Positions 39,395 through 40,733 of a stretch of 64,000 bases of DNA are shown piece by piece. Position 1 is the first letter of the stretch, and every line of letters starts with the position of its first letter. The DNA is taken from positions 1 through 64,000 of the forward strand of contig JAOFSE010000005.1 of the NCBI GenBank assembly GCA_028044295.1, written 5' to 3'. The notes under the pieces are model-generated. The model ran no database searches. It had not been told where the DNA came from and worked only from the letters and a program-made list of their open reading frames with translations. This stretch comes from Sulfurimonas sp. GTDB lineage: Bacteria; Campylobacterota; Campylobacteria; Campylobacterales; Sulfurimonadaceae. A program made the translations under genes and the position numbers.

Positions 39395-39403
39395 AAAACA
39401 CTA

Positions 39404-39428
39404 AGCAAAACATTCACTATATTTTGCT
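39404..39428 (+). terminator. Possible terminator after truA
   Basis: AGCAAAA (39404-39410) pairs with TTTTGCT (39422-39428) around an 11-base loop, ten bases after the truA stop. The stem is AT-rich and not followed by a T-run, so support is weak. Confidence 0.3.
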
Positions 39429-39460
39429 AGAATCTAGATAATTTAAAATGAAGAATTAAT

Positions 39461-39928
39461 ATGACTGAAGAAGATTTAAAAGACGTAGAACTACCAGATG
39501 GAATGAATGCTGAGACACTATCTCACTTAATGGAACCGAGAAATTATGGTAAGCTTGATAAGCCTAGCTGTATAGGTGTTGCTCTAGATGAGAAAACAAA
39601 AGAGTATGTAATATTTTATGGACTACTTGATGGTGAGATGATAAAAGATGCAAAATTTGCTACAAATGGTTGTCAAGACACGGTAGTAATAGGCTCTATG
39701 TTTACAGATATGATTATAAATAACAACTTAGACTATGCACATGGTGCTATTGCTAAAATGAATGAGAAACTAGGTTCTATGTCCGCGCAACAACAAGTAT
39801 GTGCAGACATAGTTTTTAGTTCATTTATAGCATCTCTGCAAAATCTTGAGAACTTGCAAAATGGTGAAGAAGAAGAGTTACATGTACTTAAAATGAAAGA
39901 TAGCTGCGAAGGAGAAAACCTTGGATAA
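39461..39928 (+). CDS. NifU/IscU-like Fe-S scaffold protein
   Basis: 155-residue IscU/NifU-N-type scaffold. The three cluster Cys are present at 37, 71 and 114 (KPSCIGV, NGCQDTVVIGS, QQVCADIVFSS). The Asp that normally follows the first Cys (CGD) is missing (CIG), and the C-terminal NifU thioredoxin-like part is absent. The C-terminal 25 residues are acidic. It overlaps the next gene, a ferritin-like protein, by 8 bases, hinting at coupled iron supply. Its relation to the main scaffold of the cell is unknown. Confidence 0.78.
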   Translation: MTEEDLKDVELPDGMNAETLSHLMEPRNYGKLDKPSCIGVALDEKTKEYVIFYGLLDGEMIKDAKFATNGCQDTVVIGSMFTDMIINNNLDYAHGAIAKMNEKLGSMSAQQQVCADIVFSSFIASLQNLENLQNGEEEELHVLKMKDSCEGENLG

Positions 39929-40733
39929 GCTTTATCAAAAAAAACACCAACTATGGGTAAGTATAAACTTTGCATCATTTGCAATAAATGATGAAGAGAT
40001 AAAATCAAAACTGTATGACTTTGCTCAAATTGCCTTTAGACATATGAAGTGGATTGGTTCAGATGTACTTGAACGTGGCGACAACTATAACTACGATAGA
40101 GATCTGACTTTAAATAAGCGTAAGTCTGTTTTTGAAGTGATAAATGACTTAGTAAATACTACAAAAGAGACTATGACTCTTTATAGTAATACTATACTCT
40201 CACAAAGACTTAGAACTGATGATGAGTACCTATTAGAGTATCTATCCCAGATCCTAAAAGACGAATCAAACAATAAAGAAATAACAGCCTTTAACACGAG
40301 AAGAGAATGGCTTGACAAAAACCTTGCTCAAGATCAAATAGATGCACTTACACACTTTCTTTTTGAAGAGTTATACAAAGAGTATGAACTAATTCTTATT
40401 TACGCTTACATGCAAGCCAGAACGACTGAACTTATACAGTTTAATGTTTTTCAAGATCTTATTGATGAGTCTCACTTTCACCTAAAATCATTTGGGAATA
40501 TGATGGCAAAAATGGGGATACTAGCTCTTCCAAGAGAACTTCATGAGATGACTTACATCATCAAAGATTTAAAACAGTTTGTTACAGATGGTATAGCTGA
40601 AGAAGAAGCTGCTAAAGAGATGTGTAAAGAGTTAAGTGCAGCTATCAAGGATGAAGAGTTATCTAAGTTCTTTGACTTTATTAATTACCAAGAAAGTTAT
40701 CATATAGAGCTTATGCAGAAGTTATTAAAATAA
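39921..40733 (+). CDS. Ferritin-like putative diiron protein
   Basis: A 270-residue, almost all-helical protein starting at TTG 39921 with GGAG inside the nifU-like gene. Candidate iron ligands occur in separate helices: His41 (FRHMKWIG), Glu150/Glu155 region, Asp182-Glu183-His185 (IDESHFHLKS) and Glu258-x-x-His261 (YQESYHIEL). This fits a ferritin-like four-helix fold but no named family is certain. The overlap with the scaffold gene suggests an iron-delivery or redox partner. Confidence 0.6.
   Translation: MDKLYQKKHQLWVSINFASFAINDEEIKSKLYDFAQIAFRHMKWIGSDVLERGDNYNYDRDLTLNKRKSVFEVINDLVNTTKETMTLYSNTILSQRLRTDDEYLLEYLSQILKDESNNKEITAFNTRREWLDKNLAQDQIDALTHFLFEELYKEYELILIYAYMQARTTELIQFNVFQDLIDESHFHLKSFGNMMAKMGILALPRELHEMTYIIKDLKQFVTDGIAEEEAAKEMCKELSAAIKDEELSKFFDFINYQESYHIELMQKLLK

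Follow-up and report, generated by a model that had tools for sequence, protein, structure and literature searches.

Recurrent pairing of an IscU-fold protein with a ferritin-like protein in Campylobacterota, and its possible role in iron supply to Fe-S clusters

Two overlapping genes in a Sulfurimonas genome, one for a NifU-like scaffold and one for a ferritin-like protein, raise the question of whether such a pair hands iron to Fe-S cluster assembly. The physiological iron donor for this process is disputed, and a donor role for CyaY has been refuted by some authors, according to the portion of the account available (PMC9268430). If the pair did serve in this way, the iron-donor question would become testable in a two-component system consisting of a ferritin-like and an IscU-type protein, in a phylum in which no sampled genome met the cut-off for RIC, and the IscU fold would be shown to work with a changed ligand set. 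The locus lies in a window of 64,000 nucleotides (the whole stretch of DNA that was analysed) and comprises the following features:

39395..39460 (+), 66-nt gap between truA and the scaffold gene, from the sequence
39461..39928 (+), IscU/NifU_N-fold scaffold gene, 155 aa, ATG start, open reading frame call
39908..39914 (+), Shine-Dalgarno-like gaaggag for the partner, within the coding end of the scaffold gene, from the sequence
39921..39928 (+), 8-nt reading-frame overlap; the partner begins at a TTG within the end of the scaffold gene
39921..40733 (+), ferritin-like partner gene, 270 aa, TTG start, open reading frame call

The first-pass annotation of this DNA described an overlapping pair with the partner starting inside the scaffold gene, and the two frames were found as described, sharing 8 nt. 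Upstream of the pair lie truA (the name given here to a pseudouridine synthase match), 66 nt away, and then LptF/LptG and prepilin peptidase genes, while a convergent DUF218 gene lies downstream. The gap behind truA must contain the leader of the pair and any putative promoter of its own.

The arrangement is not peculiar to this genome. When the window's own genome is counted, the partner is present in 29 of 60 near relatives and a scaffold match in 38 of them, and in a draw of 397 Campylobacterota genomes the partner was found in 80, belonging to 23 of the 68 genera. In 67 of these 80 genomes the scaffold gene is located just upstream on the same strand, with aligned ends 10-236 nt apart; a pair was counted when both genes lay on one strand and fewer than 400 nt separated their aligned ends. 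The scaffold rows used for this count reached to about E 1e-13, with one more added, and 28 of them (the Cys-poor paralogue described below included) have no adjacent partner. The pairing thus recurs beyond chance, and the outcome that would have refuted the original idea, an absence of pairing in other genomes, did not materialise. The 13 partner-bearing genomes without a linked scaffold are nine from the family f16, two from the genus g74 in which both proteins are encoded at unlinked positions, G358, where the partner match is truncated and begins at profile position 39, and G110, where the match is distant. Given the nine f16 genomes, in which no scaffold is linked to the partner, the latter can have an independent role. 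Among 272 relatives recovered in a contig scan, the best 80 carry the titles Sulfurimonas, Sulfurimonadaceae, Sulfuricurvum, Campylobacterales, Helicobacteraceae, Epsilonproteobacteria or simply 'bacterium'. Carriage by plasmids or viruses was rejected, with no tblastn match in plasmids and no relative in viral contigs.

The form of the junction is also conserved. Of 119 distinct junctions within 400 nt, 105 show overlapping genes and 14 separate ones, in a set built with a mechanical choice of starts and with identical junctions removed, to which single genomes contributed several loci. Among 114 junctions lying within 60 nt, 59 have an overlap of 8 nt, 17 one of 4 nt, 16 one of 11 nt and 13 one of another length. 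The partner starts with ATG at 112 of the 119 junctions, with GTG at six and with TTG at one, that of this window. A loosely defined Shine-Dalgarno-like word lies no more than 18 nt from the partner start at 103 of the 114 junctions, a count uncontrolled by shuffling, and pairwise distances of scaffold and partner are correlated with r 0.95 over 115 pairs, a value uncontrolled for the species tree. Frames of 387-397 aa in four g27 genomes were considered as natural gene fusions and rejected, since the extra length upstream of the partner came from read-through in a frame other than that of the scaffold gene. One metagenome bin has an intact partner beside a scaffold gene broken into two reading frames (L132:2549-3023), reflecting either a sequencing error or a decayed scaffold.

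Flanking genes vary between families across 50 compared loci, which were picked for diversity. The gene truA is directly upstream of the pair in the window and in L128, L156 and L223, a phosphatidylserine decarboxylase gene (the commonest neighbour) is near the pair in 12 of the 50 loci and three families, and a radical SAM gene is near it in seven. Retention of the pair through rearranged neighbourhoods is good evidence of a shared function, and the pair is a real, conserved and unnamed two-gene module. Its component folds are known; the pairing and the remodelled cluster site described below are the new part, and no literature on such a pair was found among openly licensed papers.

The same survey bears on the proposal that the pair is dedicated to a single client, whose particular metal centre it would assemble or load, and does not serve Fe-S proteins in general. 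Its patchy spread among genomes and genera fits a client that is not universal, and a different NifU-like relative suggests that such scaffolds can specialise: L229:2883-3362 (+) lies between nrdD, for an anaerobic ribonucleotide reductase, and the gene for its activase, nrdG2, which suggests a scaffold dedicated to that reductase system. However, no single neighbour tracks the pair across the compared families, the decarboxylase gene being confined to its 12 of 50 loci, and a dedicated client is judged decidedly improbable. A second scaffold of the same length as the one in L229 is encoded at G270:C1:1923458-1923838.

The identification of the first protein as a NifU-like scaffold was confirmed by its Pfam NifU_N score of 40.7 bits against a cut-off of 22, and by an AF2 model (mean pLDDT 86.8, with residues 147-155 below 50) whose top PDB matches are IscU structures (7c8m, 7c8n, 7cnv, 4eb5 and 2z7e; best E 1.9e-10). 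It is nevertheless set apart from NifU, IscU and SufU proper, since it scores far under the cut-offs of the NCBIfam equivalogs (49.2 against 187.9 bits for NifU_clost, 24.9 against 192.4 for IscU and 22.4 against 92.5 for SufU) and, across the pair loci searched, is not accompanied by any relative of a desulfurase. In a profile alignment to 7c8n and in a MAFFT alignment with the NifU of the same genome, the canonical Cys-x-Asp corresponds to T46-x-E48, the second Cys to C71, the canonical His to V113 and the third Cys to C114. Compared with the IscU/NifU N-domain scaffolds (PF01592; 7c8m, 7c8n), the fold and the second and third cluster-Cys positions are therefore shared, whereas the first Cys is replaced by Thr, Asn or Ser, the Asp by Glu and the His by Ala, Ile or Val, and an extra Cys, C149, is present in the tail.

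These replacements are consistent among 75 aligned relatives. Position 46 is Thr in 47, Asn in 18 and Ser in 10, position 48 is Glu in all 75, position 113 is Ala in 33, Ile in 23 and Val in 19, C71 and C114 are both found in 75 of 75, and C149 in 74, the remaining row having a gap. Ten of 84 rows had been dropped from this alignment (the window gene L001, the Cys-poor L055, L057, L058, L231 and L232, together with L228, L229, L230 and the genome's own NifU, L061), so that the unbroken counts are valid only for the partner-linked group and its near relatives. In a 132-row alignment including paralogues, C71 is kept in 125 rows, C114 in 123, C149 in 127 and C37 in 24, and C71 or C114 is missing from nine rows, a broken gene among them. 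The first-pass annotation had assigned the cluster to Cys 37, 71 and 114 and pointed to a missing Asp after the first of these. The choice of C71 and C114 was borne out, while C37, a Cys in merely 14 of the 75 relatives, was ruled out as a ligand, with the canonical Cys aligning to T46; the Asp is indeed replaced, by an invariant Glu48 that follows T46 and not C37. That annotation had missed the tail C149, the loss of the canonical His and the conserved C235 of the partner. As predicted from these columns, the site is two Cys, a Glu and a tail Cys, rather than three Cys minus an Asp.

Such changes could mean that the IscU-fold protein has given up its cluster to act as a regulator or subunit of its ferritin-like neighbour, for example one that gates iron. 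Replacement of the first Cys, the Asp and the His in every one of the 75 relatives agrees with this, as does the persistence of sister proteins in other Sulfurimonas genomes that have also lost C71 and C114. The invariance of C71, C114 and E48 in the same alignment, on the other hand, is hard to explain without a role for a metal or for thiols, and loss of the cluster function is considered improbable.

The partner is less readily placed by sequence. Its Pfam Rubrerythrin score of 13.5 bits is below the cut-off of 22.8, although weak matches to this model occur in 54 of the 80 members of its family at E 0.1 (best 2.6e-05). An AF2 model from an 80-row alignment (mean pLDDT 95.6, pTM 0.92) contains eight long helices, read as two predicted four-helix bundles in tandem. 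A Foldseek search of PDB with this model gave no match at E <=0.001. Realignment of the Foldseek list with VIA-align, mostly involving residues 127-270, placed this half among ferritin-like proteins, led by 2qqy (Z 13.9, rmsd 2.7, 132 aligned) with Dps, bacterioferritins and a mini-bacterioferritin close behind; helical bundles can reach Z of about 13 without kinship, so that support from sequence is needed for a ferritin-like assignment. Such support comes from the family profile, for which 9viw was the sole match among PDB sequences at E 0.001 (2e-20, near full length), and from the profile of the C-terminal half, whose matches, to 9viw and at a weak level to 2fzf, bring the E and E-x-x-H columns into register. 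The 306-aa 9viw, named 'Bacterioferritin', has two repeats like the partner, and its second half bears the same E-S-x-x-H and Q-E-x-x-H motifs, whereas the first half of the partner lacks E-x-x-H motifs in most members. A model of the encapsulin cargo EncB (NF058679) scored 10.6 bits against a cut-off of 90 for the window's partner and matched 23 of the 80 members weakly (best 1.4e-4), and when the partner was compared with NCBIfam, the matches up to E 1 did not include the RIC model TIGR03652.

Candidate diiron ligands had been proposed for the partner, and the predicted fold of bundle 2 does hold conserved ligand columns of the ferritin-like type. Measured against the set E...ExxH...E...ExxH, five columns (E154, H187, E228, E258 and H261) are each invariant in the 80 members, while the position of the helix-B Glu is occupied by S184 (79 of 80) with an acidic residue beside it at 183 (Glu in 75, Asp in five). 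This Ser, read from the E154/S184-H187 and E228/E258-H261 spacing, implies that the site of bundle 2 may be asymmetric, and the candidate metal site may be atypical. Bundle 1 conserves H9 (79 of 80) and H41, R96 and D100 (80 of 80 each); Glu at position 38 occurs in just 20 of the 80, so its site is degenerate in most members. C235 is present in 79 of 80. A fold without any metal site, which would have refuted the original idea, is thus not what the model suggests, a candidate ligand set being conserved in bundle 2.

Because the pairing recurs and the ligand set of bundle 2 is conserved, a link between iron handling and the IscU-type protein is the natural reading. The pair is tentatively regarded, with a probability of roughly 0.4, as a two-protein module of the iron-donor or repair type, analogous to RIC/YtfE with IscU. 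The ferritin-like partner would bind and oxidise iron at bundle 2 and dock with the scaffold. On the scaffold, C71, C114 and E48, perhaps joined by C149 in the mobile tail, would ligate either iron or a labile Fe-S cluster. Such a complex might then supply iron for, or protect, the assembly and repair of Fe-S clusters beside the NifS-NifU and SUF systems, acting like RIC/YtfE with IscU from unrelated parts and presumably drawing sulfur from a NifS or SufS encoded elsewhere in the genome. This reading draws on the conserved pairing, overlaps and Shine-Dalgarno-like words, the varied neighbourhoods and the correlated distances, on an IscU fold with invariant C71, C114 and E48 and a near-invariant C149, and on the ferritin-like fold with its ligand columns. 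Against it stand the nine f16 genomes without a linked scaffold and the two g74 genomes with unlinked genes, the S184 at the helix-B Glu position, which may make for an atypical metal site, and the replacement of the first Cys, Asp and His, owing to which the scaffold may not assemble clusters. Sequence alone cannot separate donation, protection and client-specific assembly.

Two known systems offer precedents. RIC/YtfE/ScdA resembles the partner, with its candidate diiron site, in being a diiron protein built on a four-helix bundle, and it has a functional connection to an IscU scaffold. In E. coli, IscU and IscS both interact with YtfE, which can serve as an iron source when a cluster is assembled on IscU, as described in the part of the source available (PMC9268430). 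The same passages (PMC9268430) give RIC/YtfE a hemerythrin-like fold with His-rich ligands, whereas the partner is of the ferritin type and has no RIC match among those listed. Within the phylum, HerA of C. jejuni, a diiron protein, also has its gene beside Fe-S assembly genes, upstream of iscS-nifU, according to the accessible text (PMC4257069). It differs in being a hemerythrin that is transcribed separately and is encoded next to a three-domain NifU, and in its protective role: it shields Por and Oor from oxygen, and in that text its authors saw no evidence for repair (PMC4257069), which as an analogy also counts against donation or repair by the present pair.

The absence of other iron donors lends the iron-module reading weak support. 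RIC was over its cut-off in none of the 397 phylum genomes, but this cut-off is strict and was passed by only one of 14 control genomes; weak and mostly partial RIC matches occur in 51 of the 397, the best (38.9 bits) being near full length with an internal stop in the partner-bearing G245. Frataxin gave no match in the window's genome, nor in 13 of the 14 controls, so its absence says little. Both points, with the weak match in G245, are to be set against the iron-module reading as well. A stronger version of it would have an undescribed, dedicated iron-donation and repair complex for Fe-S proteins replace RIC/YtfE-type donors in Campylobacterota, in which the tandem ferritin-like diiron protein hands iron directly to the remodelled scaffold (T46/E48/C71/C114 and mobile C149), with thiol exchange between Cys235 and C149 possibly coupling the two. 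In this full form the proposal is unlikely.

The window's genome also encodes a second NifU, with a NifU_N score of 140 bits, read as a canonical three-domain protein with CGD, GC and HC motifs and adjoining a NifS-like gene, and a SUF operon (G000:C1, L242:4890-10115) with two SUFBD_core matches and other genes named from reading. With NifS-NifU and SUF present elsewhere, the pair is an extra to the assembly machinery, and sulfur could come from either system. Across 210 loci that carry both genes of the pair, partly overlapping and in many cases short, with 81 of at least 6.5 kb, no relative of the NifS or SufS of this genome turned up. The earlier suggestion that the system is not centred on IscS agrees with this lack of a desulfurase beside the pair; given the NifS-NifU and SUF genes elsewhere in the genome, it is weakly supported. 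SUF was over the cut-off in 79 of the 397 genomes and in 34 of the 80 with the partner (odds ratio 4.5, p 1.7e-7, relatedness uncorrected), including 31 of the 67 with the pair. A tie to SUF as a rule was rejected because none of the 14 other partner-bearing genomes of the same genus carries SUF, which the window's genome does.

A further explanation assigns the pair to peroxide or oxygen defence. The partner would be a peroxidase or oxygen reductase of the rubrerythrin type, fed with electrons by the cluster or thiols of the IscU-fold protein, and Fe-S enzymes would be shielded rather than built. Rubrerythrin is the commonest weak Pfam match of the partner family, and C235 of the partner and C149 of the scaffold are conserved. 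In one f9 genome (L200) an unlinked partner gene is convergent with a peroxiredoxin gene, with Fur-family (best match PerR) and ferredoxin-like genes near, the peroxiredoxin and PerR models scoring under their cut-offs, and at a second f9 locus that has the pair (L201) a peroxiredoxin relative lies about 2 kb beyond. The orphan partner also faces oorCBA in the five f16 loci read, Oor being an enzyme protected by HerA/HerB in C. jejuni in the portion of the report available (PMC4257069). However, of the 210 pair loci one has a peroxiredoxin relative (L201), two have a Fur-family relative (L209 and L210), and none shows a Cys pattern like that of rubredoxin. IscU-type clusters are labile, and would make an odd electron carrier. 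Defence against peroxide or oxygen is on balance somewhat unlikely, and the pair continues to be read, tentatively, as an iron module.

Several loci were recorded in the course of this survey. The f16 orphan partner (L215, L216, L235, L237 and L238) lies 3' of pdxA on the same strand, facing the 2-oxoglutarate oxidoreductase genes oorCBA; the neighbouring gene families were named on L215 and assigned by clustering in the other four. At L236:824-1327 a bacterioferritin-like gene, named from its sequence, is found about 1.6 kb from an orphan ferritin-like gene in G048. In two f6 genomes (L209 and L210) the Fur-family relative is in the same locus as the pair. The Cys-poor scaffold relative (L055, L056, L057, L058, L060, L231 and L232), about 180-230 aa long, does not adjoin a ferritin-like gene. 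Both remaining cluster Cys are gone from it (as in NG[T/N]QDT and DSANMV), most members have a C-terminal CPY motif, and it co-exists with the pair in G191 and, judged by length and score, in G374.
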